64,000 bases of DNA from Meghimatium bilineatum. Taxonomy: Eukaryota > Mollusca > Gastropoda > Stylommatophora > Philomycidae. Each line of letters begins with the position of its first letter. Within the stretch, counting starts at the first letter, position 1. Below are positions 11,601 through 38,100 of the stretch, piece after piece. Under the pieces are notes generated by a model that saw only the letters and a list, made by a program, of their open reading frames with translations, ran no database searches and was not told the DNA's origin. Where the stretch lies: assembly GCA_034231615.1 (NCBI GenBank), contig CM067312.1:4319001-4383000 (forward strand). The letters are read 5' to 3'. The position numbers were made by a program, and so were the translations under genes.

Positions 11601-14600
11601 AGTGGCCCAGAACCTATAACAAGGCATTGTTACTATAAACAGGAATTTCTACTATAAACAGGGATTGCAACTATCTTCTTCTTCTTCATTCGTTCTCAAA
11701 CTCCTGCAGATTAGCAGGATGTAGTCCGGAGAACGATGGAATGGGACAGCCAACTCCATCCCATAACCTCCTTAGTCGCCTTTTATGACATGCTTGGAAG
11801 GTAAACAGTGTTGCTATTCTTTGCTCCCCTTTCGGGCCCGGTAACACACGGGCGCACGGATTGCAACTATAAACAAGGATGTTACTATAAACTGGGATGA
11901 TTGCTATAAACAGGTATTGTTCAGTTGTTAGATATGTGTGGTGCTTAGCTCTTGAGTTCAGTGTGTAGGGAAGACCATCAGTTATACATGTGTAGTGCTT
12001 AGCTCTTGAGTTCAGTGTGTAGGGAAGACCATCAGTGAGATGTGTGTGGTGCTTAGCTCTTGAGTTCAGTGTGTAGGGAAGACCATCAGTGAGGAAATTT
12101 CACTGTCACTACAATCAGTATGACTATGGAGACTATGGCGGTTGCAAAGATCTTGAATTAAACTGGGACATAAATACAACTTATGTCTGAATTTTCTGTT
12201 ACTCCACAGAATAATACAAGTACAAGTGAACTGTGTTTATTAAAGGTATCTGGAGGCAGTGATCTTGAGGCAATGATAAGAAGCAGTGATCTTGAGGCAA
12301 TGATAGGAAGCTGTGATCTTGGGGCAATGGGAAGCAGTGATTTTGAGGCAATGGGAAGCAATCTTGAGGCAATGGGAAGCAGTGATCTTAAGGCAATGGG
12401 AAGCACCTACCACCACCCGGCACATGGTAGAAAGAGTAAATACTTGCAACCCCAGGGATCGGATAAGTCAGTAAGTGTAAGTAACTTAGAAACATGCTTG
12501 TCAATCGACAGAGAACTGGAACTATTAGTCTTAATGCAATTGTGGGATTATTCAGGGAAATCGGAACACCATTGGATGTGTCATGTGCATTATGACGATG
12601 ATCTGATGATTAATTAGTTACAGATCTAACAGCTAAACATTATTGACCAACCTGATTTCAGAGTTCCACTTAAATTTCCGCCATGGACTTCTAGGTTTCT
12701 TCCTGTTGTCAGATTTGTCTTCCCCTTCACTTTCTGTGGATGCTTCCTCCTTTCCATCTGTGTTTTCTTCCTTTGATCCAGACTCCATTCTGGATTATTC
12801 CGTTAAAACTTATTATTGTTTAACAATTATCAATCAACAACCAAGCTAACAACAACACAAAAGACAGCTTTTTAACTCTTAAAACATGAGATTCCACTTA
12901 CATTGGCATTCAGTTCATTTTTATGAGAAGCCATTTCCAGTTACTTTTAACACTTTATTTATCAGCAATTCAGCACACGCTTATCTCTGTATATTTTTAT
13001 GTTTAACACCTGTTCTTCCGTGACTTTTCTGATTATCATGGTTTTGGTTTTTGTCATTTATGTTTCAAGTAAGCCTAATTTTGTCATTGTAGTATTGACG
13101 CTTTCTGGTACTTAGCAATGTTAGACGTTTGTGGTTCTCAAGGAATTTACATACCTGCGCAGTGTCTGTTGTTATTTGTGTGTCGGCCAACTGGTTCATA
13201 TTCATTGTAGCTTGAAAATATACATGTTGGGAGTCGACTAAAATTACATATATTTTAGGGATGCTGTATGGTTGAAAACATAAAACGTGTTGACTCGGGG
13301 ATGAGTGAGTCAACTTGCACATCAGTCCCTTCTTATGACATGCATTAACCGTGTGGCAACCCTGGCCTGCACTTCTACATTATAACATGCATCGGCCATG
13401 TGGCAACCTTGGCCTGCACTTCTAGTTTATAACAAGCATTGACCATGTGGCAACCTTGGCCTGTATTTTTAGCTTATAACATGCATTGGCCATGTGGCAA
13501 CCTTGGTCTGCACTTCTAGTTTATAACATGCATCAACAGTGTGGCAACAACCTCGGTCTGCACTTTTAGTTTATAACAAGCATCGACCGTGTGTCAACCT
13601 TTGATGCATTTCTAGTTTATAACAAGCATCGACTATGTGGCATCCTTGACCTGCACTTCTAGTTTATAACATGCATCGACCATGTGGCAACCTTGGCCTG
13701 TACTTTTAGTTTATAACATGCATCAGACGTGTGGCAACCTTGGTCTGCACATATAGTTTATAACATGCATCGAACATGTGGCAACCTTGGCCTGCATTTC
13801 TAGTTTATAACAAGCATCAACCATGTGGCATCCTTGACCTGCACTTCTAGTTTATAACATGCATCGACCATGTGGCAACCTTGGCCTGTACTTTTAGTTT
13901 ATAACATGCATCAGCCGTGTGGCAACCTTGGTCTGCACATATAGTTTATAACATACATCGAACATGTGACAACCTTGGCCTGCATTTCTAGTTTATGACA
14001 TACATCGAACGTGTGGCAACCTTGGCCTGCATTTCTAGTTTATGACATACATCAAACGTGTGGCAACCTTGACTTCTAGTTTTTCCTGCAAAAAACAGGG
14101 CCACTGTCTTCTTTCCAGGTATATTATAGGGGGCGACTAAAGAAAGTTGGAGAATAGGCCAACAACCTGTCAACGCTGTGTAAAAAGTTTTTGTCACTGC
14201 ATGTCTTCCCTTGATTTCTTACTTTTGTCTTCAGTCATAATCTATGTGAATGGCAGAGAGCTGCAGGTCAGTGAACATTGTACTTTTGTCTCTTTTGTGG
14301 CAGACTGGTAGGTGTGCCATCACTTAGTGTGTCATCACTGCAAATGGGTCAATAGATCTGTCGGAAGAATGATGAACTAGTTGGCCCAGAAGTATATACT
14401 GCATTCATGGCAAGACGTGATGAACCTGGTATGCTCAAATACCTCCCCTCAGGAACTAAACATGCATCCATAAACCCTCTTAACACAACCGTGCCCAACC
14501 GAGATAGCAAACCATATATGTGTCGTATGAGTGTCACTTCAGTTACTTAACACAACCGTGCCCAACCGAGACAGCAAACCTTATATGTGTCATATGAGTG

Positions 14601-17600
14601 TCACTTCAGTTACTTAACACAACCGTGCCCAACCGAGACAGCAAACCTTATATGTGTCGTATGAGTGTCACTTCAGTTACTTAACACAACCGTGCCCAAC
14701 CGAGACAGCAAACCTTATATGTGTCGTATGAGTGTCACTTCAGTTACTTAACACAACCATGCCCAACCGAGACAGCAAACCTTATATGTGTCGTATGAGT
14801 GTCACTTCAGTTACCTAACACAACCGTGCCCAACCGAGACATCAAACCTTATATATGTCGTATGAGTGTCACTTCAGTTACTTAACACAACCATGCCCAA
14901 CCGAGACAGCAAACCTTATATATGTCGTATGAGTGTCACTTCAGTTACTTAACACAACCGTGCCCAACCGAGACAGCAAACCTTATATGTGTCGCATGAG
15001 TGTCACTTCAGTTACTTAACACAACCATGCCCAACCGAGACAGCAAACCATATATGTGTCGTATGAGTGTCACTTCAGTTACTTGACACAACCGTGCCCA
15101 ACCGAGACAGCAAACCTTATATGTGTCGCATGAGTGTCACTTCAGTTACTTAACACAACCATGCCCAACCGAGACAGCAAACCATATATGTGTCGAATGA
15201 GTGTCACTTCAGTTACTTAACACAACCGTGCCCAACCGAGACAGCAAACCTTATATGTGTCGCATGAGTGTCACTTCAGTTACTTAACACAACCGTGCCC
15301 AACCGAGACAGCAAACCTTATATGTGTCGCATGAGTGTCACTTCAGTTACTTAACACAACCGTGCCCAACCGAGACAGCAAACCATATATGTCGTATGAG
15401 TGTCACTTCAGTTACTTAACACAACCGTGCCCAGCCGAGACAGCAAACCTTATATGTGTCGCATGAGTGTCACTTCAGTTACTTAACACAACCGTGCCCA
15501 GCCGAGACAGCAAACCTTATATGCGTCGTATGAGTGTCACTTCAGTTACTTAACTGAGAAAAAGCTGTGCTATTGTCTGAAAGGCTATAAGCTGTTAAGA
15601 GCTACCTGTTCACAGGGATTATTTAATCATCATAATCATCATTGAGATATGCATAGCATGTCACAGTTTTCTAATCTTTGAACCCTTTCATGACTACAAA
15701 TGGGAGAGTTCATTGTATAAAATATCCGATTTATTCAACTGTAAATACGCATGTGGTTGCATCTGTGGGTCTCATCAATGGCCCACTAGACATACCACCC
15801 ATGCAACAGAAAACCATAGTGGATGACATGCCGTTATATTGAGGTTATCTTCTTAGAGAAGCTTCATGGCATATACAATTATGCTTTTATTTTGTTGTTG
15901 AAATGTGTTTCATGTTTACTTGAATACATATGTATGCACCCTCTGTGGTTGGGAGGGAGCCAGAGATGTACTGTGTAGCATTGGGGAGGAGGAAACTGAC
16001 AGCACTGTTTTTTTCCTATGCAGAAACCCATCATAGAGGCACAGTGACTCAGGACGTGACAATCCTTTTGACTTGAACATTTGGTTGCATGCCTGAAGCG
16101 ATAGAGAAGTTCGGCATAACCAGTAGTCAATTGGTGGTGGGGAATGAGCACAGTGAATCCTATCTTGGCTACAGTGACTAGGAGCAGTGCATAGGTTGAA
16201 ACCTACCTTCCTGGAGGTGTCATAGTTATTCTCTGGCTCTGTCCCAGGGTGGGCTGAAAAACCACAGACTTCCCAGCAATATAATGTCATTTAATGGCAT
16301 TAGGTCTAAGGGCATGAGACCATGGACCGCTGGATCAGCAACCAACCAACCAACCATTCAACTGTAAATCATCAACAGCCACCATTTCCTCTTCTTTAAA
16401 TCAGTTCTCAAACTTCTGCTGGTTTATTGGAAGCAGTCCAGAGAAAGAAATGTGCTATGTCATGATTTAAAGCTTAGCTGCGATATATGTCTTCTGGCCT
16501 GACACATCAGACTTCAGCATTGACAGCTACTAATTAAGGTGTAACATTTACATGAAAACTGTTGTCAATTATTGATAACATAAAATTCCTTTCTACAATA
16601 TAATAATTATTTTTTCTTCTGTGTTTGTTCTCAAACTCCTACAGTTTAGCAGGATGTAGTCCAGAGAACTGAATGTGCTACATCACGGTTTACAGCATAG
16701 CTGCAATATCTGCACCTTTCGGTCTGACACATCCGAATTCTTCTTCTTCTTCTTCAGCATTCATTCTCAAACTCCCACTGGATTTCTCTTGTAACAGGAC
16801 AATGATCCTACAAGATTTCCAGTTGAATGTAGTCCAGAGAATGGAAATGCGTTGTGTTGCCGTTTTATTTGCGCCAGTGGCCCAACACATCCGTCTTCGG
16901 ACATCCGAATTCAACAGCAATAATAATAAGATGCATAACCTGTCAGTGTCGTAGGGATGTCACACCGGTGACACCAGCAGAAAAAGTTCTACAAATATCT
17001 CTATCTTAAGCCATTCAGAGGAGTGTAGAAAAATCATGCCTAGACCATTCCTTGATGTTATCAATCCAAGACTAAACATTTTCTCCTTCCACCCTCGACC
17101 GCTTTTTGCAAAATAGTTTTATAAATACAATTTGCAATAGTTTTATAAATACAATAAGGCAATAAAGTATTTGTCTGCAACACACATAACAGACACACAT
17201 ACACAGCAGACACACATAATAGACACACATACACAGTAGATACACAGCAGACACACAAAACAGACACACAAAACAGACACAAATAATAGACACACACAGC
17301 AGACACAAATAATAGACACACACAGCAGACACAAATAATAGACACACACAGCAGACACAAATAATAGACACACAAAGCTGACACAAATAATAGACACACA
17401 AAGCAGACACAAATAATAGACACACAAAGCAGACACAAATAATAGACACACACAGCAGACACAAATAATAGACACACACAGCAGACACAAATAATAGACA
17501 CACACAGCAGACACAAATAATAGACACACAAAGCTGACACAAATAATAGACACACACAGCAGACACAAATAATAGACACACACAGCAGACACAAATAATA

Positions 17601-20600
17601 GACACACAAAGCAGACACAAATAATAGACACACACAGCAGACACAAATAATAGACACACACAGCAGACACAAATAATAGACACACACAGCAGACACAAAT
17701 AATAGACACACACAGCAGACACAAATAATAGACACACAAAGCAGACACAAATAATAGACACACACAGCAGACACAAATAATAGACACACAAAGCAGACAC
17801 AAATAATAGACACACACAGCAGACACAAATAATAGACACACACAGCAGACACAAATAATAGACACACACAGCAGACACAAATAATAGACACACACAGCAG
17901 ACACAAATAATAGACACACACAGCAGACACAAATAATAGACACACACAGCAGACACAAATAATAGACACACACAGCAGACACAAATAATAGACACACACA
18001 GCAGACACAAATAATAGACACACACAGCAGACACAAATAATAGACACACACAGCTGACACAAATAATAGACACACACAGCAGACACAAATAATAGACACA
18101 CACAGCAGACACAAATAATAGACACACACAGCAGACACAAATAATAGACACACAAAGCAGACACAAATAATAGACACACACAGCATACACAAATAATAGA
18201 CACACACAGCAGACACAAATAATAGACACACACAGCAGACACAAATAATAGACACACACAGCAGACACAAATAATAGACACACACAGCAGACACAAATAA
18301 TAGACACACACAGCAGACACAAATAATAGACACACACAGCAGACACAAATAATAGACACACACAGCAGACACAAATAATAGACACACACAGCAGACACAA
18401 ATAATAGACACACACAGCAGACACAAATAATAGACACACACAGCAGACACAAATAATAGACACACACAGCAGACACAAATAATAGACACACAAAGCAGAC
18501 ACAAATAATAGACACACACAGCAGACACAAATAATAGACACACACAGCAGACACAAATAATAGACACACACAGCAGACACAAATAATAGACACACACAGC
18601 AGACACAAATAATAGACACACAAAGCAGACACAAATAATAGACACACAAAGCTGACATACTTTGCTTTCTGTACATCAAGCTCATGCTGTTCCTCTAACT
18701 CCGGCATCACTTTGATAATGGCTGTCCAGAATATATAAAAACTAGAAATAGTGAGCATGAAACAAAACATTTGACACAATCTTAGTGTCTTCATAATTCC
18801 CTAGACATAAAAACAATAATCCTGTCTAAATATCTTTTTATCCTTCATTTTTTTCTTAAACTTCTTCAAATTGAGATTGACGTTCCAAGAATAGAATGAG
18901 TTATGTCACAGTTTACAGTTTGACTATATCTACACTATTTGGTCTGAGACAATGATACATCTGAATTCTGCATGGCTTCCTGGATTTTATATTTTACGCA
19001 TGCGGTTGCATCTGTGCATCTCACCAATGGCCCACTAGACAAACCACCCATGCAACAGAAAACCTTAGTAGATGACATGCCGTTATATTGAGGTTTATCT
19101 TCTTATAGAAGCTTCATGGCACATCATCTATACAATTATACTCCTTGTGCTGTTATTTTGTTGTTGAATTGTGTTTCATGTTTACTTGAATATAACAATA
19201 GAGAAGTTCGGCATAACCAGTAGTCATTTGGTGGCGGGGAATGAGCACAGTGAACCCTATTTTGGCTACAGTGGCTCGGGGCAGTACATAGGTTGAAATC
19301 TTCATTCCTGAGGTGTGATAGTTATTCTCTGGCTCTGTCCCGGGGTGGGACGAAAATCCACTGACTTCCCAGCAATATAATGCCATTTAATGGCATTGGG
19401 TCAAAGTGCATGAGCCCATGGACAGCTGGATCAGCAACCAACCAATTAACCCAGGTTCTGCATATCTTCTAGGCTGCTTTGACCACAATGGGATGGGATA
19501 GCAACCACTACCCCATTTTCTTTTATTGCGTTCATTTTCAAACTCCTTAAGATTGCAAGATGTAGTCCAGACAATAGAATGTAGTGTGGTTTATCAGAGA
19601 ATAGAATGTAGTGTGGTTTATCAGACAATAGAATGTAGTGTGGTTTATCAGACAATAGAATGTAGTGTGGTTTATCAGACAATAGAATGTAGTGTGGTTT
19701 ATCAGACAATAGAATGTAGTGTGGTTTATCAGACAATAGAATGTAGTGTGGTTTATCAGACAATAGAATGTAGTGTGGTTTATCAGACAATAGAATGTAG
19801 TGTGGTTTATCAGACAATAGAATGTAGTGTGGTTTATCAGACAATAGAATGTAGTGTGGTTTATCAGACAATAGAATGTAGTGTGGTTTATCAGACAATA
19901 GAATGTAGTGTGGTTTATCAGACAATAGAATGTAGTGTGGTTTATCAGACAATAGAATGTAGTGTGGTTTATCAGACAATAGAATGTAGTGTGGTTTATC
20001 AGACAATAGAATGTAGTGTGGTTTATCAGACAATAGAATGTAGTGTGGTTTATCAGACAATAGAATGTAGTGTGGTTTATCAGACAATAGAATGTAGTGT
20101 GGTTTATCAGACAATAGAATGTAGTGTGGTTTATCAGACAATAGAATGTAGTGTGGTTTATCAGACAATAGAATGTAGTGTGGTTTATCAGACAATAGAA
20201 TGTAGTGTGGTTTATCAGACAATAGAATGTAGTGTGGTTTATCAGACAATAGAATGTAGTGTGGTTTATCAGACAATAGAATGTAGTGTGGTTTATCAGA
20301 CAATAGAATGTAGTGTGGTTTATCAGACAATAGAATGTAGTGTGGTTTATCAGACAATAGAATGTAGTGTGGTTTATCAGACAATAGAATGTAGTGTGGT
20401 TTATCAGACAATAGAATGTAGTGTGGTTTATCAGACAATAGAATGTAGTGTGGTTTATCAGACAATAGAATGTAGTGTGGTTTATCAGACAATAGAATGT
20501 AGTGTGGTTTATCAGACAATAGAATGTAGTGTGGTTTATCAGACAATAGAATGTAGTGTGGTTTATCAGACAATAGAATGTAGTGTGGTTTATCAGACAA

Positions 20601-23600
20601 TAGAATGTAGTGTGGTTTATCAGACAATAGAATGTAGTGTGGTTTATCAGACAATAGAATGTAGTGTGGTTTATCAGACAATAGAATGTAGTGTGGTTTA
20701 TCAGACAATAGAATGTAGTGTGGTTTATCAGACAATAGAATGTAGTGTGGTTTATCAGACAATAGAATGTAGTGTGGTTTATCAGACAATAGAATGTAGT
20801 GTGGTTTATCAGACAATAGAATGTAGTGTGGTTTATCAGACAATAGAATGTAGTGTGGTTTATCAGACAATAGAATGTAGTGTGGTTTATCAGACAATAG
20901 AATGTAGTGTGGTTTATCAGACAATAGAATGTAGTGTGGTTTATCAGACAATAGAATGTAGTGTGGTTTATCAGACAATAGAATGTAGTGTGGTTTATCA
21001 GACAATAGAATGTAGTGTGGTTTATCAGACAATAGAATGTAGTGTGGTTTATCAGACAATAGAATGTAGTGTGGTTTATCAGACAATAGAATGTAGTGTG
21101 GTTTATCAGACAATAGAATGTAGTGTGGTTTATCAGACAATAGAATGTAGTGTGGTTTATCAGACAATAGAATGTAGTGTGGTTTATCAGACAATAGAAT
21201 GTAGTGTGGTTTATCAGACAATAGAATGTAGTGTGGTTTATCAGACAATAGAATGTAGTGTGGTTTATCAGACAATAGAATGTAGTGTGGTTTATCAGAC
21301 AATAGAATGTAGTGTGGTTTATCAGACAATAGAATGTAGTGTGGTTTATCAGACAATAGAATGTAGTGTGGTTTATCAGACAATAGAATGTAGTGTGGTT
21401 TATCAGACAATAGAATGTAGTGTGGTTTATCAGACAATAGAATGTAGTGTGGTTTATCAGACAATAGAATGTAGTGTGGTTTATCAGACAATAGAATGTA
21501 GTGTGGTTTATCAGACAATAGAATGTAGTGTGGTTTATCAGACAATAGAATGTAGTGTGGTTTATCAGACAATAGAATGTAGTGTGGTTTATCAGACAAT
21601 AGAATGTAGTGTGGTTTATCAGACAATAGAATGTAGTGTGGTTTATCAGACAATAGAATGTAGTGTGGTTTATCAGACAATAGAATGTAGTGTGGTTTAT
21701 CAGACAATAGAATGTAGTGTGGTTTATCAGACAATAGAATGTAGTGTGGTTTATCAGACAATAGAATGTAGTGTGGTTTATCAGACAATAGAATGTAGTG
21801 TGGTTTATCAGACAATAGAATGTAGTGTGGTTTATCAGACAATAGAATGTAGTGTGGTTTATCAGACAATAGAATGTAGTGTGGTTTATCAGACAATAGA
21901 ATGTAGTGTGGTTTATCAGACAATAGAATGTAGTGTGGTTTATCAGACAATAGAATGTAGTGTGGTTTATCAGACAATAGAATGTAGTGTGGTTTATCAG
22001 ACAATAGAATGTAGTGTGGTTTATCAGACAATAGAATGTAGTGTGGTTTATCAGACAATAGAATGTAGTGTGGTTTATCAGACAATAGAATGTAGTGTGG
22101 TTTATCAGACAATAGAATGTAGTGTGGTTTATCAGACAATAGAATGTAGTGTGGTTTATCAGACAATAGAATGTAGTGTGGTTTATCAGACAATAGAATG
22201 TAGTGTGGTTTATCAGACAATAGAATGTAGTGTGGTTTATCAGACAATAGAATGTAGTGTGGTTTATCAGACAATAGAATGTAGTGTGGTTTATCAGACA
22301 ATAGAATGTAGTGTGGTTTATCAGACAATAGAATGTAGTGTGGTTTATCAGACAATAGAATGTAGTGTGGTTTATCAGACAATAGAATGTAGTGTGGTTT
22401 ATCAGACAATAGAATGTAGTGTGGTTTATCAGACAATAGAATGTAGTGTGGTTTATCAGACAATAGAATGTAGTGTGGTTTATCAGACAATAGAATGTAG
22501 TGTGGTTTATCAGACAATAGAATGTAGTGTGGTTTATCAGACAATAGAATGTAGTGTGGTTTATCAGACAATAGAATGTAGTGTGGTTTATCAGACAATA
22601 GAATGTAGTGTGGTTTATCAGACAATAGAATGTAGTGTGGTTTATCAGACAATAGAATGTAGTGTGGTTTATCAGACAATAGAATGTAGTGTGGTTTATC
22701 AGACAATAGAATGTAGTGTGGTTTATCAGACAATAGAATGTAGTGTGGTTTATCAGACAATAGAATGTAGTGTGGTTTATCAGACAATAGAATGTAGTGT
22801 GGTTTATCAGACAATAGAATGTAGTGTGGTTTATCAGACAATAGAATGTAGTGTGGTTTATCAGACAATAGAATGTAGTGTGGTTTATCAGACAATAGAA
22901 TGTAGTGTGGTTTATCAGACAATAGAATGTAGTGTGGTTTATCAGACAATAGAATGTAGTGTGGTTTATCAGACAATAGAATGTAGTGTGGTTTATCAGA
23001 CAATAGAATGTAGTGTGGTTTATCAGACAATAGAATGTAGTGTGGTTTATCAGACAATAGAATGTAGTGTGGTTTATCAGACAATAGAATGTAGTGTGGT
23101 TTATCAGACAATAGAATGTAGTGTGGTTTATCAGACAATAGAATGTAGTGTGGTTTATCAGACAATAGAATGTAGTGTGGTTTATCAGACAATAGAATGT
23201 AGTGTGGTTTATCAGACAATAGAATGTAGTGTGGTTTATCAGACAATAGAATGTAGTGTGGTTTATCAGACAATAGAATGTAGTGTGGTTTATCAGACAA
23301 TAGAATGTAGTGTGGTTTATCAGACAATAGAATGTAGTGTGGTTTATCAGACAATAGAATGTAGTGTGGTTTATCAGACAATAGAATGTAGTGTGGTTTA
23401 TCAGACAATAGAATGTAGTGTGGTTTATCAGACAATAGAATGTAGTGTGGTTTATCAGACAATAGAATGTAGTGTGGTTTATCAGACAATAGAATGTAGT
23501 GTGGTTTATCAGACAATAGAATGTAGTGTGGTTTATCAGACAATAGAATGTAGTGTGGTTTATCAGACAATAGAATGTAGTGTGGTTTATCAGACAATAG

Positions 23601-26600
23601 AATGTAGTGTGGTTTATCAGACAATAGAATGTAGTGTGGTTTATCAGACAATAGAATGTAGTGTGGTTTATCAGACAATAGAATGTAGTGTGGTTTATCA
23701 GACAATAGAATGTAGTGTGGTTTATCAGACAATAGAATGTAGTGTGGTTTATCAGACAATAGAATGTAGTGTGGTTTATCAGACAATAGAATGTAGTGTG
23801 GTTTATCAGACAATAGAATGTAGTGTGGTTTATCAGACAATAGAATGTAGTGTGGTTTATCAGACAATAGAATGTAGTGTGGTTTATCAGACAATAGAAT
23901 GTAGTGTGGTTTATCAGACAATAGAATGTAGTGTGGTTTATCAGACAATAGAATGTAGTGTGGTTTATCAGACAATAGAATGTAGTGTGGTTTATCAGAC
24001 AATAGAATGTAGTGTGGTTTATCAGACAATAGAATGTAGTGTGGTTTATCAGACAATAGAATGTAGTGTGGTTTATCAGACAATAGAATGTAGTGTGGTT
24101 TATCAGACAATAGAATGTAGTGTGGTTTATCAGACAATAGAATGTAGTGTGGTTTATCAGACAATAGAATGTAGTGTGGTTTATCAGACAATAGAATGTA
24201 GTGTGGTTTATCAGACAATAGAATGTAGTGTGGTTTATCAGACAATAGAATGTAGTGTGGTTTATCAGACAATAGAATGTAGTGTGGTTTATCAGACAAT
24301 AGAATGTAGTGTGGTTTATCAGACAATAGAATGTAGTGTGGTTTATCAGACAATAGAATGTAGTGTGGTTTATCAGACAATAGAATGTAGTGTGGTTTAT
24401 CAGACAATAGAATGTAGTGTGGTTTATCAGACAATAGAATGTAGTGTGGTTTATCAGACAATAGAATGTAGTGTGGTTTATCAGACAATAGAATGTAGTG
24501 TGGTTTATCAGACAATAGAATGTAGTGTGGTTTATCAGACAATAGAATGTAGTGTGGTTTATCAGACAATAGAATGTAGTGTGGTTTATCAGACAATAGA
24601 ATGTAGTGTGGTTTATCAGACAATAGAATGTAGTGTGGTTTATCAGACAATAGAATGTAGTGTGGTTTATCAGACAATAGAATGTAGTGTGGTTTATCAG
24701 ACAATAGAATGTAGTGTGGTTTATCAGACAATAGAATGTAGTGTGGTTTATCAGACAATAGAATGTAGTGTGGTTTATCAGACAATAGAATGTAGTGTGG
24801 TTTATCAGACAATAGAATGTAGTGTGGTTTATCAGACAATAGAATGTAGTGTGGTTTATCAGACAATAGAATGTAGTGTGGTTTATCAGACAATAGAATG
24901 TAGTGTGGTTTATCAGACAATAGAATGTAGTGTGGTTTATCAGACAATAGAATGTAGTGTGGTTTATCAGACAATAGAATGTAGTGTGGTTTATCAGACA
25001 ATAGAATGTAGTGTGGTTTATCAGACAATAGAATGTAGTGTGGTTTATCAGACAATAGAATGTAGTGTGGTTTATCAGACAATAGAATGTAGTGTGGTTT
25101 ATCAGACAATAGAATGTAGTGTGGTTTATCAGACAATAGAATGTAGTGTGGTTTATCAGACAATAGAATGTAGTGTGGTTTATCAGACAATAGAATGTAG
25201 TGTGGTTTATCAGACAATAGAATGTAGTGTGGTTTATCAGACAATAGAATGTAGTGTGGTTTATCAGACAATAGAATGTAGTGTGGTTTATCAGACAATA
25301 GAATGTAGTGTGGTTTATCAGACAATAGAATGTAGTGTGGTTTATCAGACAATAGAATGTAGTGTGGTTTATCAGACAATAGAATGTAGTGTGGTTTATC
25401 AGACAATAGAATGTAGTGTGGTTTATCAGACAATAGAATGTAGTGTGGTTTATCAGACAATAGAATGTAGTGTGGTTTATCAGACAATAGAATGTAGTGT
25501 GGTTTATCAGACAATAGAATGTAGTGTGGTTTATCAGACAATAGAATGTAGTGTGGTTTATCAGACAATAGAATGTAGTGTGGTTTATCAGACAATAGAA
25601 TGTAGTGTGGTTTATCAGACAATAGAATGTAGTGTGGTTTATCAGACAATAGAATGTAGTGTGGTTTATCAGACAATAGAATGTAGTGTGGTTTATCAGA
25701 CAATAGAATGTAGTGTGGTTTATCAGACAATAGAATGTAGTGTGGTTTATCAGACAATAGAATGTAGTGTGGTTTATCAGACAATAGAATGTAGTGTGGT
25801 TTATCAGACAATAGAATGTAGTGTGGTTTATCAGACAATAGAATGTAGTGTGGTTTATCAGACAATAGAATGTAGTGTGGTTTATCAGACAATAGAATGT
25901 AGTGTGGTTTATCAGACAATAGAATGTAGTGTGGTTTATCAGACAATAGAATGTAGTGTGGTTTATCAGACAATAGAATGTAGTGTGGTTTATCAGACAA
26001 TAGAATGTAGTGTGGTTTATCAGACAATAGAATGTAGTGTGGTTTATCAGACAATAGAATGTAGTGTGGTTTATCAGACAATAGAATGTAGTGTGGTTTA
26101 TCAGACAATAGAATGTAGTGTGGTTTATCAGACAATAGAATGTAGTGTGGTTTATCAGAGCAATAGAATGTAGTGTGGTTTATCAGACAATAGAATGTAG
26201 TGTGGTTTATCAGACAATAGAATGTAGTGTGGTTTATCAGACAATAGAATGTAGTGTGGTTTATCAGAGAATAGAATGTAGTGTGGTTTATCAGACAATA
26301 GAATGTAGTGTGGTTTATCAGACAATAGAATGTAGTGTGGTTTATCAGACAATAGAATGTAGTGTGGTTTATCAGACAATAGAATGTAGTGTGGTTTATC
26401 AGACAATAGAATGTAGTGTGGTTTATCAGACAATAGAATGTAGTGTGGTTTATCAGACAATAGAATGTAGTGTGGTTTATCAGACAATAGAATGTAGTGT
26501 GGTTTATCAGACAATAGAATGTAGTGTGGTTTATCAGACAATAGAATGTAGTGTGGTTTATCAGACAATAGAATGTAGTGTGGTTTATCAGACAATAGAA

Positions 26601-29600
26601 TGTAGTGTGGTTTATCAGACAATAGAATGTAGTGTGGTTTATCAGACAATAGAATGTAGTGTGGTTTATCAGACAATAGAATGTAGTGTGGTTTATCAGA
26701 GAATAGAATGTAGTGTGGTTTATCAGACAATAGAATGTAGTGTGGTTTATCAGACAATAGAATGTAGTGTGGTTTATCAGACAATAGAATGTAGTGTGGT
26801 TTATCAGACAATAGAATGTAGTGTGGTTTATCAGACAATAGAATGTAGTGTGGTTTATCAGAGAATAGAATGTAGTGTGGTTTATCAGACAATAGAATGT
26901 AGTGTGGTTTATCAGACAATAGAATGTAGTGTGGTTTATCAGACAATAGAATGTAGTGTGGTTTATCAGACAATAGAATGTAGTGTGGTTTATCAGACAA
27001 TAGAATGTAGTGTGGTTTATCAGACAATAGAATGTAGTGTGGTTTATCAGACAATAGAATGTAGTGTGGTTTATCAGACAATAGAATGTAGTGTGGTTTA
27101 TCAGACAATAGAATGTAGTGTGGTTTATCAGACAATAGAATGTAGTGTGGTTTATCAGACAATAGAATGTAGTGTGGTTTATCAGACAATAGAATGTAGT
27201 GTGGTTTATCAGACAATAGAATGTAGTGTGGTTTATCAGACAATAGAATGTAGTGTGGTTTATCAGACAATAGAATGTAGTGTGGTTTATCAGACAATAG
27301 AATGTAGTGTGGTTTATCAGACAATAGAATGTAGTGTGGTTTATCAGACAATAGAATGTAGTGTGGTTTATCAGACAATAGAATGTAGTGTGGTTTATCA
27401 GACAATAGAATGTAGTGTGGTTTATCAGACAATAGAATGTAGTGTGGTTTATCAGACAATAGAATGTAGTGTGGTTTATCAGACAATAGAATGTAGTGTG
27501 GTTTATCAGACAATAGAATGTAGTGTGGTTTATCAGACAATAGAATGTAGTGTGGTTTATCAGACAATAGAATGTAGTGTGGTTTATCAGACAATAGAAT
27601 GTAGTGTGGTTTATCAGACAATAGAATGTAGTGTGGTTTATCAGACAATAGAATGTAGTGTGGTTTATCAGACAATAGAATGTAGTGTGGTTTATCAGAC
27701 AATAGAATGTAGTGTGGTTTATCAGACAATAGAATGTAGTGTGGTTTATCAGACAATAGAATGTAGTGTGGTTTATCAGACAATAGAATGTAGTGTGGTT
27801 TATCAGACAATAGAATGTAGTGTGGTTTATCAGACAATAGAATGTAGTGTGGTTTATCAGACAATAGAATGTAGTGTGGTTTATCAGACAATAGAATGTA
27901 GTGTGGTTTATCAGACAATAGAATGTAGTGTGGTTTATCAGACAATAGAATGTAGTGTGGTTTATCAGACAATAGAATGTAGTGTGGTTTATCAGACAAT
28001 AGAATGTAGTGTGGTTTATCAGACAATAGAATGTAGTGTGGTTTATCAGACAATAGAATGTAGTGTGGTTTATCAGACAATAGAATGTAGTGTGGTTTAT
28101 CAGACAATAGAATGTAGTGTGGTTTATCAGACAATAGAATGTAGTGTGGTTTATCAGACAATAGAATGTAGTGTGGTTTATCAGACAATAGAATGTAGTG
28201 TGGTTTATCAGACAATAGAATGTAGTGTGGTTTATCAGACAATAGAATGTAGTGTGGTTTATCAGACAATAGAATGTAGTGTGGTTTATCAGACAATAGA
28301 ATGTAGTGTGGTTTATCAGACAATAGAATGTAGTGTGGTTTATCAGACAATAGAATGTAGTGTGGTTTATCAGACAATAGAATGTAGTGTGGTTTATCAG
28401 ACAATAGAATGTAGTGTGGTTTATCAGACAATAGAATGTAGTGTGGTTTATCAGACAATAGAATGTAGTGTGGTTTATCAGACAATAGAATGTAGTGTGG
28501 TTTATCAGACAATAGAATGTAGTGTGGTTTATCAGACAATAGAATGTAGTGTGGTTTATCAGACAATAGAATGTAGTGTGGTTTATCAGACAATAGAATG
28601 TAGTGTGGTTTATCAGACAATAGAATGTAGTGTGGTTTATCAGACAATAGAATGTAGTGTGGTTTATCAGACAATAGAATGTAGTGTGGTTTATCAGACA
28701 ATAGAATGTAGTGTGGTTTATCAGAGAATAGAATGTAGTGTGGTTTATCAGACAATAGAATGTAGTGTGGTTTATCAGACAATAGAATGTAGTGTGGTTT
28801 ATCAGACAATAGAATGTAGTGTGGTTTATCAGAGAATAGAATGTAGTGTGGTTTATCAGACAATAGAATGTAGTGTGGTTTATCAGAGAATAGAATGTAG
28901 TGTGGTTTATCAGACAATAGAATGTAGTGTGGTTTATCAGAGAATAGAATGTAGTGTGGTTTATCAGAGAATAGAATGTAGTGTGGTTTATCAGACAATA
29001 GAATGTAGTGTGGTTTATCAGACAATAGAATGTAGTGTGGTTTATCAGAGAATAGAATGTAGTGTGGTTTATCAGAGAATAGAATGTAGTGTGGTTTATC
29101 AGAGAATAGAATGTAGTGTGGTTTATCAGACAATAGAATGTAGTGTGGTTTATCAGACAATAGAATGTAGTGTGGTTTATCAGACAATAGAATGTAGTGT
29201 GGTTTATCAGAGAATAGAATGTAGTGTGGTTTATCAGAGAATAGAATGTAGTGTGGTTTATCAGAGAATAGAATGTAGTGTGGTTTATCAGAGAATAGAA
29301 TGTAGTGTGGTTTATCAGAGAATAGAATGTAGTGTGGTTTATCAGACAATAGAATGTAGTGTGGTTTATCAGACAATAGAATGTAGTGTGGTTTATCAGA
29401 CAATAGAATGTAGTGTGGTTTATCAGACAATAGAATGTAGTGTGGTTTATCAGACAATAGAATGTAGTGTGGTTTATCAGAGAATAGAATGTAGTGTGGT
29501 TTATCAGACAATAGAATGTAGTGTGGTTTATCAGAGAATAGAATGTAGTGTGGTTTATCAGAGAATAGAATGTAGTGTGGTTTATCAGACAATAGAATGT

Positions 29601-32600
29601 AGTGTGGTTTATCAGACAATAGAATGTAGTGTGGTTTATCAGAGAATAGAATGTAGTGTGGTTTATCAGAGAATAGAATGTAGTGTGGTTTATCAGAGAA
29701 TAGAATGTAGTGTGGTTTATCAGACAATAGAATGTAGTGTGGTTTATCAGACAATAGAATGTAGTGTGGTTTATCAGACAATAGAATGTAGTGTGGTTTA
29801 TCAGAGAATAGAATGTAGTGTGGTTTATCAGAGAATAGAATGTAGTGTGGTTTATCAGAGAATAGAATGTAGTGTGGTTTATCAGAGAATAGAATGTAGT
29901 GTGGTTTATCAGACAATAGAATGTAGTGTGGTTTATCAGACAATAGAATGTAGTGTGGTTTATCAGACAATAGAATGTAGTGTGGTTTATCAGACAATAG
30001 AATGTAGTGTGGTTTATCAGACAATAGAATGTAGTGTGGTTTATCAGAGAATAGAATGTAGTGTGGTTTATCAGAGAATAGAATGTAGTGTGGTTTATCA
30101 GAGAATAGAATGTAGTGTGGTTTATCAGAGAATAGAATGTAGTGTGGTTTATCAGACAATAGAATGTAGTGTGGTTTATCAGAGAATAGAATGTAGTGTG
30201 GTTTATCAGACAATAGAATGTAGTGTGGTTTATCAGACAATAGAATGTAGTGTGGTTTATCAGAGAATAGAATGTAGTGTGGTTTATCAGAGAATAGAAT
30301 GTAGTGTGGTTTATCAGAGAATAGAATGTAGTGTGGTTTATCAGAGAATAGAATGTAGTGTGGTTTATCAGACAATAGAATGTAGTGTGGTTTATCAGAG
30401 AATAGAATGTAGTGTGGTTTATCAGAGAATAGAATGTAGTGTGGTTTATCAGAGAATAGAATGTAGTGTGGTTTATCAGACAATAGAATGTAGTGTGGTT
30501 TATCAGACAATAGAATGTAGTGTGGTTTATCAGACAATAGAATGTAGTGTGGTTTATCAGAGAATAGAATGTAGTGTGGTTTATCAGACAATAGAATGTA
30601 GTGTGGTTTATCAGACAATAGAATGTAGTGTGGTTTATCAGACAATAGAATGTAGTGTGGTTTATCAGACAATAGAATGTAGTGTGGTTTATCAGACAAT
30701 AGAATGTAGTGTGGTTTATCAGACAATAGAATGTAGTGTGGTTTATCAGACAATAGAATGTAGTGTGGTTTATAGCTGTCTGAGATATCTGCACCATTCA
30801 ACCCGACGTGTGTGTGTGAATTTTGAATCACAGTGACCTATGAATTAGAGCAACCTCCCTGGATGCCTTTTATGACGTGTGACAGGTCAGCATATTATTC
30901 TTTGCTCTCATTCTGGGCTCTGGTAACACAGACAATGACAGTTTAGAAACACATTCTGCACTCTGGTAACACAGACAATAACAGTTTAGAAACACATTCT
31001 GGGCTCTGGTAACACAGACAATGACCATTTAGAAACACATTCTGGGCTCTGGTAACACAGACAATGACCATTTAGAAACAGCCATATATACTTCATATAT
31101 TATGAAAATTTTATACAGCAACTCTGAACAACTGAAATAAAAAACAGTTCCATAATGCGGCATTGAAATCATCATGAGCTGACACTCAATGACTGCTGGA
31201 TCAAAGACAAGACAAATGACCATAGCTCCCCAAATTCACTCAAATTTATATGAGAATATAGGTGAACTGCTGACCATGACCTTCAAAATACAAGACTTTA
31301 TGTGCATAAATTTTAATCCCAGGAAGAAGCCCTTGCTTACAAACACCATCATATGCTGTGCCAATTAGGATCTTGTCAGTTTCTAAAACTAAAGTTTACA
31401 AACAGTGTACAAACCTTCTTTGAGCTTCTGCATCGGTACTTTAAGTTGACCCTCTTCTTGTGATTCCCTGAGTTTTTTAGCTCTGCGTTGCAACGTATGT
31501 TTCCCACATGGCAAGTGCTCACCAAGGTGGTTAAAAATGGCCGTCCTACTTCCCCATGCTAGACTGCGAGAGCGAAGTTCAATGCTGAAAAATTGCAGAC
31601 AAAATAATATCCATATACTTTTGTGAACAGCATGTTCTTTACTTTAATAGTGCTATTTTATAATTCAAGCGTGTCCTATACAGGAAATTGCTATTTAATA
31701 TAACTCAAGCATTCATCTATTTCTAAGATTGTATTTTTGGGAGCTGTTTGTGGTAAAACAAATGTCTATCTCAACTGGGAAGTGACATCATAGCGCAAGG
31801 AAGTCAGTGTACCATCTATTGTGCTACTACGACACTCAAAGCTAGTTAGTACACATACTGAAAAAACTCCATATTTTATACAAAGCTAGTTAGCATCAAT
31901 AATATAAGAAAAATACAATCTTCATTTTTTTGGCCACTTCATGAGACAGGGAGGTTTGGAGAACATAGTCTCAACAGGCAAGATTGAAGGCAACAGAGAT
32001 GGAGGGCAAGAACGTGAGAAAATATTAGTTTAACAACCTCGCATGGTAGGGAAACCACAACGATCTTGATACATAATGCTGGAGATAGAGAACTGTGGAG
32101 AGCCATGATCGCTTACGCCAGCCAGTATGGCACCTGATGATGATGATGAGTTAGTACTCACTGAAAAAATACCCATATTTTATAAAAAGCTAGTTAGAAC
32201 TCACTGCAAAAAAAACCCAATATTTTATAAAAAGTTAGTTAGTACTCACTTGGAAAAAACCCCATATTTTATACAAAGCTAGTTAGTACCCAATGAAAAA
32301 AATCCATATTTTATACAAGACAAACAGCAACTCACTCTAACAAAAGCTTATTGACATCATCAGAGAAAAACTGTTTCCTCTCTTTTGCTTCCTTGGCCTC
32401 CTGAAATGAACATCATTCATTATTATTATTGAATCAAAGACACACAAATTATAATTGAATAAAACTAACATGATTTGTTATGATTCAAAGACATCTATAA
32501 ATTAGTCTCCAGAAGGATCAAGAGATGGCCTCAGTTTCTTCACTTTGTCTCATAGTGCCAGGTTTAAAGACTCAAAAAAAGCCAAAGAGATGACTTGCCC

Positions 32601-35106
32601 GCAGGATGTGTTCCGAAATATGAAGAAGGCCATGTTGGCATTAGTCAGACTTTATTATGGGAAGTTGTACTTGTAATGTATAATCATTCATTCTCAAATC
32701 CCTGCTGATTAGCAGGATGTAGTCCAGAGAATGTGTCACAGTTTACAGATAGACTATGACATCCACGAGTTCTGGACTGACATGTCTGACTTCAGCATGG
32801 TTTCTTTGGGTAACAAACTACCTAGTTGGCAGCCTGTAATATGTGGAGCAGTGCTTGTAGCATAGAGTAAACTACAGTAAGCCGTTCAACTGCTTGCAAC
32901 TGAATTTGAACTCATTACCATTGGCTAGATGTGCTCACTAACTCCACACCACAGAACCTAAGTTGTGTGGGAACTAGGAAGTTGCTCAAGTTGTCTTTCA
33001 TACAACTGCATCAGAAAGACATTTTGTATACACACGACAATATACCAACCATAGACACACTACAAGATATCAGCTATAAACATACTACAATATACCAGCC
33101 ATAGGCACACTACAATATATCAGCCATAGACACACTACAACTTATCAGCCATAGACAAATTACAATATATCAGCTATAAACATACTACAATATATCAGCC
33201 ATAGACACTACAATATATCAGCCATAGACACATTACAATATATCAGCCCTAGACAGATTACAATATATCAGCTATAGACACACTACAATATATCAGCCAT
33301 AGACACTACAATATATCAGACATGGACACACTACAATATATCAGCTATAGACATACTATAATATATCAACTAGACACATTACAATATATCAGCCATAGAC
33401 ACTATAATATATCAGCCATAGACACACTACAATATTTCAGCCAAAGACACACTACAACTTAGCCATAGACATATTACAATATATCAGCTATAGACATACT
33501 ACAATATATCAGCAATAGACACATTACAATATATCAGCCCTAGACAAATTACAATATATCAGCCATAGACACACTACAATATATCAGCCATTCATTCATT
33601 TTCCTTTTGCGCTGAAGTTAGTGCATAGGGCAGAGGTCAGATCTCTACAATTCTGTCTGTTCAAAGCTACTCTGTGCAGTTCTTGAATAGTATGAATATT
33701 GGTTGTTTTACTTTCTCTAAGTATTGTTCTTCTGAGTGTTTCTTTTGGTCTACCCCTTGCTCTTTTGCCTGTAGGTATCCATTCAAGAGATTGGTGGTGT
33801 ATTCTTTTTGTGTCTGCGCGTAGGACATGCCCGATGTAGGACCAACGGCGTTTTCTGATAACATCTGTGATGAAATTTTGATGTGTCTCTTCTCTGATTT
33901 TATCATTCGATTTGAATTCACTCCAATGGCTATAGACACACTACAATATATCAGCCCTAGACAAATTACAATATATCAGCCCTAGACAAATTACAATATA
34001 CCAGACATGAACACACTTCAATATGTCAGCCATAGAAACACTACAATATATCAACCATAGACACACTACAATATATCAGCCATAGACACTATAATATATC
34101 AGCCATAGACACACTAAAATATATCAGCCATAGACACACTACAATTATCAGCTATAGACACACTACAATATATCAGCCATAGACACACTACAACTTAGCC
34201 ATAGACATATTACAATATATCAGCTATAGACATACTACAATATATCAGCCATAGACACATTACAATATATCAGCCATAGACACACTACAATATATCAGCC
34301 ATAGACACACTACAATATGTCAGCCATAGACACACTACAATATATCAACCATAGACACACTACAATATATCAGCCATAGACACACTACAATATATCAGCC
34401 ATAGACACACTACAATATATCAACCATAGACACACTACAATATATCAGCCATAGACACACTACAATATATCAACCATAGACACATTACAACATACTAGTC
34501 ATATTTTCAGCTGCATGGACTAACCCTTTTTATGTTATCAATAGCTTCCATAAGCTCAGAAGGTAACTGTGATGGTAACAAGATATTTTTGTCAGACTGA
34601 TTATCTCCCTTGCCTTCATCCCCAGATCTGCTAGACGAGTCTTCCTTCATAGCTTCTTCTACCTGTGGAGGTAACAATGTTAAATATGCGCTATACTGAT
34701 AATTCTGCAGTTATCAACAAAACTATACAATACAATGCCATTTAAAAAAATAAAAGTGTACACAAGAATTCAAGTCAAGCAAGAGAAGACAATATATGTT
34801 TCTACAACAATAAGAAGAAAACGATGGACTTAAATTGAGCATGTAAAATAATTAAAATGGGTACCAAACAGCAAATTAAAAAGAGGAAGACCAACAGAGA
34901 CTCCTCGCAGAACAACAATCAAAGCGGGTATGTCTACGGATCTTAACAAGCAAGAATTACACACAGTAGCATCATATCGCACAAACTGATGAGCTCTGGT
35001 TTCTGCCCTATGCACTGTAGTCGGCGCTGAAGAAACATATATAAATAGATTAGATAGATAGGATACAATAGAATAGGCAGGCAGGCAGGCAGGCAGGCAG
35101 ACAGGC

Positions 35107-35149
<43 letters not shown>

Positions 35150-38100
35150 TGAAAGCCACATGTATAAAACAGCAAGATCATCCACACCTAATATATATTT
35201 TATACTAAAAAATTGTGACTGGGTGTTGTGGGAATATGAAAGGAGAGAAAGAATGGTAACATTACGATCTACCAAGAACATCATACAAAACAATCTATCA
35301 GACAGGCAGGAGTCTACTGGCAGCTAGATCAGTATATTTTCTACGTCCGTGTGTTGCCGGGCCCGAAAGGGGAGCAAAGAATAGCAACAGTTTACCTTCC
35401 ATGCATGTCGTAAGAGGTGACCAAGGAGGTTATGGGATGGAGTTGGCTCTCCCATCCAATATAGGGTCAAGGACCCACAGCCATGCTGAAGTCGGATGTG
35501 TCAGGCCAAAAAGCGCAGATATCGCAGCAATGCCGTAAACCATGACACAACGCATCCCATTCTCCAGACTACATCCTGCTAATCTGCAAGAGTTTTAGAA
35601 TGAATGTAGAAGAGGTATATTGTCTAGATCCAGGAGGATGGTGACATTGTGGGTCTGCATCTGGCGTTAAGCTTAGGGGTGGGAGCTTTAGTTTTTGTTC
35701 TATAAAGAAAGGAGGAGTTGGGATACAAATACTTATACCAAACACCACAAAAATAGAACTCTCATTCACTTCTGGCAAATTATCAACAAATTACAGGTCA
35801 GCATTACAAGAAGCATCAAAGGCTCAAGAGACTCAAAGGAGCAAACATAGTCTCCATGTGTGACTGCATATCAGTTCTCCAGACCATCCAAAATTAACCT
35901 CAAGATCTGATAAAACTGTAGAACTTTTAAATCAACTGTCCAGCAACAATAAATTGGTGCTGAAGTGGATCCCTGCGCACTGCAGAACTGCCCAAAAAAA
36001 AGGCAACTGACAAACTAGCAAAAGCAGGTGCAAATAAAGGAACAATTCTATCGCTGGCTGAAGCAAAAACTCTCACCAAAATAAAATACAAACATACATG
36101 GAGTCAGAGAACAGGCAGCAACTTTCCACAGGACCCCATCCTAAGGCTGAACAGATCACAGCAACTACCATTTTTAGGCTCAGCACAGGATACTGTAGAC
36201 TACAAGCACATCTACACAATTTAAAGGTTTGCCAAACTGACCAATGTCCATGTCAAAAGGGTCCCCAGACTCTAAAACACATTCTGCAGTCATGTCCACT
36301 TTTTGGCGACTTGAGCACTAAAACCTGACTTATCTGGAAGTGAAGCTATGGGGCAACTGTGAAGAATTCTGCCGACAACTGGTTACTGAATTCATTGAGG
36401 TGACCCACGTTCCTGTATAGACTTCTGAGCGCAGGGAACTGATCGCAGAAGAATAAGAATAAGAAGAAATGTTGATTTGGTGTGTGCTAGTCTGCTGAAG
36501 CTATTGTTACTGTCATCAAACGGCTCAAGAGCTCAGAGAATTCACTTCATTGCACACACAAGTGATAAAATCTCAAATATAGAAAAGTCTTGGTTTCACA
36601 ATCTTGACTATTCCTGAACAAAGTAACAGACTCACCTCTACCAGTTCATTTACACCATGTTCTGGGAATTCAGCACTATCCACTGCACCATTAGTTACTG
36701 TAGTTAAGCTTTTGTTGACTGCGCTTACTATAACTGGACTAGATGGGGTGGTTACAGGTGCAGCCTCTTTCTGAGAAGAAGCATCTGGCACAGAATTTTG
36801 CCTGTACATGAAAGCCAAATATTTATAAACAATAATTATCCATTATATATAATTATACAAATTAGATATATTATATATTGAGCACATTAACAATTACATT
36901 TTTTTTCTTCCGAAAAAGTTTTCACATAATTTAAATTCCTGAAGATATGTACTCATATCTTCTGTGGCTAAATTTGTTTAGTGGTACATGGATTTTTAGT
37001 GGTCAGATTTAAACAACACAGTCAGTAACAACACTAGTGAAGCTGCCAAGCTTCTACTTCACTTCAGGGTTGTGATCCTATTGCACCAAAAATGCTTTAC
37101 TGTAACATTGCATGTGTTGAGCCAAACGGTGCAGGTATTGCAGCCAAGCTGTAAACTATGTAACTACAACATAGTAACAGGCAGGAGTTTCAACATAAAC
37201 ACAGAAAAAGATCCATAGTGTAAAAATATTCAATTTTCTGCTTATACACAACATACATTACTAATGAAAATCATAATTCCTGTGTATTCAAAAACTTGGA
37301 GTCTAAAAAGATAGGATTTAAATCATGTGACCTGACCAAAACCATAGTCCGCCCCCATGTAGTTAAACAGGAATTGAATATGAAACAAGTTTCTCCCGCA
37401 GCACTGAAGACAATCTCATTAGAACGCGTGTTTGTAGTTCCATCAGTCATTTATGAGTATATAAGCTCAGTCCCAGTAAGTAAACTGACAGTAATGAGAC
37501 AATAATGTGACAGTAATCTGACTTTCCAAATCTAGCATTTATTGCTTTCTACAATATCAAACTTAAAAATTTAACTAGTCCAACTACGAATTGTAACTTG
37601 ATCAAATGACAACTAAGAATTGTAACTTGATCAAATGACAACTAAGAATTGTAACTTGATCAAATGACAACTAAGAATTGTAACTTGATCAAATGACAAC
37701 TAAGAATTGTAACTTGATCAAATGACAACTAAGAAATGTAACTTGATCAAATGACAACTAAGAAATGTAACTTGATCAAATGACAACTAAGAAATGTAAC
37801 TTGATCAAATGACAACTAAGAAATATAACTTGATCAAATGACAACTAAGAATTGTAGCTTGACCAATTGACAGTTTTAATAAAATGACAATTTTTAATGA
37901 ACTTACAATTTCAACTTATCCAGGATCTTCATTTTTTTCTGCTTGAGACCGAGTTCAAGGTCTTTCACACTTGCAAATTTCTTCTTCTTTTTCTTTCCTT
38001 TCTCTCCATTTCTGTTTTCCAACTGTCTTTTACGCTGACAGACGTATAAAATAACATTACAAAATGGTAAATAAATAAATAAAAGCATACATACTACCAC

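Follow-up and report, generated by a model that had tools for sequence, protein, structure and literature searches.

Here we describe a large array of 27-bp tandem repeats in a 64,000-nucleotide stretch of the genome of the gastropod Meghimatium bilineatum (NCBI GenBank assembly GCA_034231615.1, contig CM067312.1, positions 4,319,001 to 4,383,000 of the forward strand; hereafter the window, whose first letter is position 1). The array lies in an intron of a minus-strand ubinuclein gene, and the explanation that best accounts for it, which we hold with considerable confidence, is that of a large, recently homogenised minisatellite that began as a tandem duplication of 27 bp inside a short-form copy of a dispersed repeat, here called SINE-B (SINE, short interspersed element), with that copy itself nested in an older copy of the same family. 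The nesting, the derivation of the unit, the intronic position and the near-complete identity of the units are each supported by the sequence. Calling the older copy copy 1 and the array-bearing one copy 2, the features assigned to this locus are as follows (positions in the SINE-B consensus are marked as such):

18853..18987, plus strand: copy 1, first piece, consensus about 40-170
18988..19455, no strand assigned: insertion in copy 1, a dispersed element of roughly 455 bp with two further copies in the window
19456..19516, plus strand: copy 1 continued, consensus about 150-212
19517..19567, plus strand: copy 2, left part, a degenerate TTC-rich end and consensus about 23-74
19568..30773, plus strand: array of 415 x 27 bp, varying only at unit position 5 (C/G), plus one 1-bp insertion
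30774..30807, plus strand: copy 2, right part, consensus about 105-141; 30774-30812 scores above every one of 2,000 shuffles
30808..30851, no strand assigned: 44 unassigned bp separating copy 2 from the point where copy 1 resumes, without significant SINE-B match
30852..30930, plus strand: copy 1 continued, consensus 212-296, meeting 19516 without a gap

Tandem Repeats Finder reported one single array at 19568-30773, with a period of 27 and 415 copies, in agreement with the roughly 11.2 kb of 27-bp units given in a preliminary description of this DNA. When every one of the 415 units was read, position 5 of the unit proved to be C in 374 and G in 41, and the sole other difference was a 1-bp insertion in unit 244 (numbering from 0), which leaves the G of that unit ambiguous; over the whole 11,206 bp, substitutions are confined to this two-state position. 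Units 2 to 243 form a run of 242 identical units (6,534 bp), and the G units are clustered, with 36 of the 41 falling within the last 76 units of the array, one being unit 1, and four lying at units 244-270. The same description spoke of a large satellite; the array is certainly large, but the term is generous because the unit is 27 bp long and a single locus is known, and what we have is a large minisatellite; satellite DNA in the strict sense forms many or very long arrays, usually heterochromatic ones. Assembling uniform arrays of this size is difficult, and the length and uniformity seen here could in part be products of the assembly, with the true array being shorter, longer or more varied. 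We consider this rather unlikely, given that the mosaic of G and C units and the single 1-bp insertion were both kept, whereas blind smoothing would tend to erase them, and it would in any event be compatible with the origin that we favour.

SINE-B is a dispersed repeat that occurs in both orientations within the window. Nine copies could be aligned besides the array-bearing one, further fragments were found, and the majority sequence of those nine, all of them from the window, served as the consensus throughout. The word SINE is kept merely as a label, and retroposed repeat is the safer name, because a target-site duplication was clear at only one of the four copies tested and no polymerase III head was recognised. 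The clear duplication is 13 bp long (GGATTGCAACTAT, around 11676-11857; 0 of 1,000 shuffles), and the best candidate strings at the other three copies were matched by 112, 114 and 594 of 1,000 shuffles. A comparison of one full copy with Rfam at E values up to 10 gave no meaningful match for a polymerase III head, although degenerate heads or promoter boxes were not searched for, and ARAGORN found no tRNA. Exact scans found a piece of SINE-B in none of the viral contigs and the 27-bp unit in none of the prokaryote contigs, as would be expected for animal-type sequence, and a literature search with pieces of the SINE sequence returned no match. At 11614-11912, a short array of 18-19-bp units encloses a SINE-B copy with a 13-bp target-site duplication, the order of events there being the reverse of that discussed here.

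On both sides the array runs into the remainder of the same SINE-B copy (19517-19567 and 30774-30807), the left flank matching the consensus up to position 74. Beyond the right part of this copy come the 44 bp of 30808-30851, whose best match elsewhere in the window was no better than E 0.14; a SINE-B homology test on 30806-30855 was equalled by 1,571 of 2,000 shuffles. The family then resumes at 30852, at the very consensus position, 212, at which the upstream pieces stop. The joined pieces score 92, which is the exact sum of their separate scores (59 and 33), and therefore no gap exists at the join; in a rough simulation, uniformly distributed ends would produce an exact join of this sort in about 0.7% of cases. 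Since copy 1 stops and resumes at position 212 without a gap, copy 2 is, on these alignments, nested in copy 1. Copy 2 is a short form spanning consensus positions of about 23-141, and such a form does exist, as five other short copies tested end at 153-168. The two upstream pieces of copy 1 are separated by the element of roughly 455 bp, which an imperfect duplication brackets (TTCTGCATGGCTTC / TTCTGCATATCTTC; its exact core is 8 bp, and 25 of 1,000 shuffles were as long) and whose other copies each lie in two pieces (15746-15926 and 16082-16355; 41547-41361 and 41187-40920).

The array had previously been placed between the two halves of one SINE-B. That holds for the immediate flanks and fails farther out, where 30852-30930 belongs to the older copy 1; flanks from different insertions, which the preliminary description named as grounds for abandoning its view, are accordingly found in the distal right flank and not next to the array. 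Assigning the whole right flank to the same copy as the left was rejected, as 30852-30930 joins copy 1 at consensus position 212. A related alternative is that one full-length SINE-B was split by the array, the upstream SINE-B pieces being a separate fragment that happens to end nearby. A single copy can indeed be aligned through 30930 (score 71, consensus 23-296), and the nesting comes without a clear target-site duplication. We nevertheless find this alternative improbable, because it would leave to chance an upstream copy ending exactly where the right piece begins, would place 44 bp without significant SINE-B homology inside the element, and would pass over the short form to which the five other short copies attest.

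The derivation of the unit was addressed separately from that of the flanks. The 27-bp unit aligns to consensus positions 74-105 (CAGAGAA to GGTTTA) with the loss of 5 bases, and the right flank resumes after it. Upon collapsing the array, the fit of the locus to SINE-B depended on the number of units kept, with scores of 9 for none, 52 for one, 36 for two, 13 for three and -11 for four; when the unit was shuffled between fixed flanks, 0 of 5,000 shuffles reached the real score, for the G unit and the C unit alike. The claim that the unit corresponds to an internal segment of SINE-B is in this respect sustained: the unit is homologous to an internal part of a dispersed family, as judged from the copies that the window contains, and only in context is the match strong. 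At position 5 of the unit, the alignment as read by eye shows G in each of the nine other SINE-B copies (GAGAA), and thus G is ancestral and C derived.

With regard to mechanism, we propose that a short-form SINE-B, copy 2, inserted into the older copy 1 within the ubinuclein intron, and that a 27-bp piece inside copy 2 was then duplicated locally in tandem, either by slippage or by a break repair that used little or no shared sequence. The preliminary description had pointed to a CAG shared by both ends of the segment, from which slippage or unequal exchange could start. That part was not confirmed, and no CAG closure is seen in the present sequence: the right junction reads TTTATAGC and the right end GGTTTATAGC, and by eye the junctions of the array (left TAGTC/CAGA, right TTTAT/AGCT) have no base in common in phase. 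Eight of the nine other SINE-B copies retain the segment, with its ends 31 bp apart in seven and 21 bp apart in one, and four of these eight carry a CAG at each end (separated by 31 bp in c6827, c16624 and c58411 and by 21 bp in c32687). Because of the 5-bp loss in copy 2, however, closure at the CAG predicts a unit of 26 bp and not of 27. To reach 27 bp in this way, a T would have to be gained and the right end subsequently altered; an equally good account is that a staggered break was joined with no bases shared.

Unequal exchange or gene conversion, acting between sister or homologous copies, would then have enlarged the array. We infer this from the spread of the derived unit and from the older mixture kept at one end: the derived C unit appears to have spread over most of the array, leaving the older mixture of G and C units near its right end. 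If the array has only been accumulating mutations since it was last homogenised, fewer than about 3 of its 11,206 sites have changed in that time (95% bound). Identity to the SINE-B consensus is 82% for copy 2 with one unit (91 of 111 aligned bases) and 77% for copy 1 (187 of 242). Set against the near-uniform array, these identities suggest that the insertions long predate the last homogenisation, which we infer to be younger than the insertion by two to three orders of magnitude, on the assumptions that rare variants were not smoothed in the assembly and that the consensus lies close to what originally inserted.

Several of our results weigh against the history just outlined. On the right side of the array only about 34 bp belong to copy 2, and no convincing target-site duplication was seen for this copy, the best candidate (AGCAACC) being equalled by 111 of 1,000 shuffles; a search using the ends of the one-copy model likewise gave 6-bp strings only. 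The units adjoining both flanks carry the C and not the ancestral G. A duplicated block of 22 units in the mosaic of G and C units, which would support unequal exchange, is only suggestive: the length of the exact repeat was reached by 5 of 1,000 shuffles and by 17 of 1,000 Markov strings, a looser gapped test gave 52 of 500 and 59 of 500, and the tests disagree. It must also be considered that the assembler could have smoothed rare variants. Lastly, the unit taken alone is a modest match to SINE-B, with 20 of 5,000 shuffles of the G unit and 180 of 5,000 of the C unit reaching its score, and a BLAST search with the doubled C unit against the array-masked window found no match at E 0.05. It is thus on the combination of the unit and its position that the SINE-B origin depends. 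In a control with 27-mers from the rest of the window, 299 of 4,134 scored at least as high as the G unit, in a set that contains the SINE copies themselves and is for that reason unclean. The weak showing of the unit by itself in BLAST would suit an array of outside origin, namely a pre-existing 27-bp satellite that was inserted into a SINE-B copy or exchanged with it. We think this very unlikely, as the unit fits the stretch that is missing between the flanks, in the right order and phase, and is without a match in the window outside the arrays.

As to the setting of the array, four exons on the minus strand match or fill the ubinuclein middle domain, UBN_AB (PF14075), and with them the intron can be delimited:

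31415..31584, minus strand: ubinuclein exon upstream of the array intron, donor GTTTGT
18722..31414, minus strand: array intron, 12,693 bp, of which the array makes up 11,206 bp (88%)
18661..18721, minus strand: ubinuclein exon downstream of the array intron, 61 bp, acceptor GGACAG, donor GTATGT
about 12652-12789, minus strand: ubinuclein exon, in which an acceptor CCAG at about 12789 keeps the frame
about 11063-11207, minus strand: ubinuclein exon which, with the other three, matches or fills UBN_AB

Spliced together, the four exons give a match to UBN_AB of 171 amino acids (E 2.3e-45, profile positions 44-207). The 61-bp exon is missed by Pfam when taken alone, and joining it to the exon at 31415-31584 lifts the score from 44.4 to 66.3 bits. 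The intronic location reported earlier is confirmed by this gene model. At the other side of the short exon, a 26-bp array (17208-18657) reaches the 5' splice site GTATGT, so that the next intron begins with a minisatellite.

The array most likely has no function of its own. Its place in a ubinuclein intron, its strong strand asymmetry (GC skew of about 0.55) and, on the minus strand, which is that of the host gene, a frame that is open from end to end over all 11.2 kb (3,735 codons) might be taken to mean that the array or its transcript is functional, for example in regulation of the host gene or as a source of small RNAs, but we give this hardly any credence, because a 27-bp period, being divisible by 3 and lacking stops in the phase concerned, can produce the open frame, probably as a by-product, Rfam at gathering score gave no match over the whole window, folding prediction on four units was weak, and recent expansion explains the uniformity.

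The array is by no means alone in the window. Tandem Repeats Finder returned 69 rows, and merging overlapping rows and dropping ten that were short or simple (303-352, 11614-11674, 11866-11912, 35078-35149, 37479-37522, 42316-42397, 44840-44878, 46815-46855, 58866-58908 and 60698-60722) left 28 arrays, which cover 27,227 of the 64,000 bases (about 43%); the array lists differ slightly, in that one splits 49642-50603 in two and leaves out 3465-3621. One of the smaller arrays lies at the end of copy 1 itself:

30909..31080, plus strand: small second array of four 43-bp units, the unit beginning in the end of copy 1 and extending into the flank (by eye)

Two more arrays lie likewise inside copies of another repeat, SINE-A (4357-4638 and 8695-8804), and were counted in favour of the explanation that we prefer. 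The first, of 33 bp in 8.3 copies, is carried by the SINE-A copy at 4335-4718, and an imperfect direct repeat 33 bp apart, seen by eye in SINE-A (16772-16786 and 16805-16819), may have seeded it; the second, of about three 34-bp units, lies at the start of the minus-strand copy at 8588-8804. In all, 4 of the 28 arrays, at three loci, touch SINE-A or SINE-B, where 2.9 would be expected from the 10.2% share of these elements in the non-array sequence. SINE-B hits confined to the outer ends of the consensus do not enter into this share, and the four recognised may not include SINE-derived arrays that have diverged. There is therefore no enrichment, and the idea that SINE-A and SINE-B copies are preferred cradles of arrays here was rejected. 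What stands out in this window is how readily arrays arise in general. Other mobile elements are present as well, including two adjoining open reading frames at 43064-44854, with a single stop between them, that match the DDE_Tnp_1_7 transposase family, and reverse transcriptase fragments (RVT_1) at 4820-6154 on the minus strand and 46858-47511 on the plus strand.

Large arrays often retain little trace of their origin. The locus described here displays together the source copy, the older host element and, within the unit, both the ancestral base and its derived replacement, and the steps leading from one copy to a long array of uniform units can be tested with reads and related species. Should copy number vary between individuals, one could trace here, stage by stage, how an array is born, how a derived unit spreads and how the units are homogenised. 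Events of this kind are already known, and SINE-A and SINE-B copies were not favoured as starting points in this window. A broader reading, which we offer tentatively and without much confidence, is that of a genome in which minisatellites arise readily, to the point of occupying about 43% of this gene region, and in which a 27-bp piece of a nested retroposon very recently came to fill 88% of a ubinuclein intron.

Minisatellites derived from Alu were reportedly described by Jurka and Gentles in 2006, as credited by Ahmed and Liang in 2012. In a partial search of the literature, covering titles and the beginnings of abstracts, we found no description of the present locus. Some likeness exists to the B1-rich cluster in intron 10 of Sfmbt2 in mouse and rat, which is also a lineage-specific intronic tandem growth that involves a SINE and proceeded in two phases; the units of that cluster are much larger and hold microRNA genes in mouse, whereas no known RNA family was found here (PMC3212979). 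Also comparable are the SINE-derived satellites (sSats) of squamate reptiles, whose units measure about 70-290 nt and number up to about 1,000 (Vassetzky et al. 2023; PMC10702118). As in our case, these are tandem arrays built from a portion of a SINE and bordered by longer SINE-like sequence on one side (on both in minor variants), and longer arrays are more uniform, which we count as a further likeness. Unlike them, with their many loci and subtelomeric preference, the present array has a unit of 27 bp and a single known locus, is intronic, and lies inside a nested SINE (PMC10702118). In human, Ahmed and Liang (2012; PMC3389668) listed 7,276 tandem repeats derived from transposable elements, 6,817 of them without flanking direct repeats or truncated terminal units. 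The array resembles these Alu-derived and other element-derived repeats in that a piece of a SINE was apparently duplicated in place, with no flanking direct repeats or truncated terminal units, and differs from the Alu repeats, whose mean unit numbers by subfamily are given there as 2.30-2.42, in having reached 415 units (PMC3389668). SINE-derived minisatellites and satellites having already been published, the array is another case of a known process.

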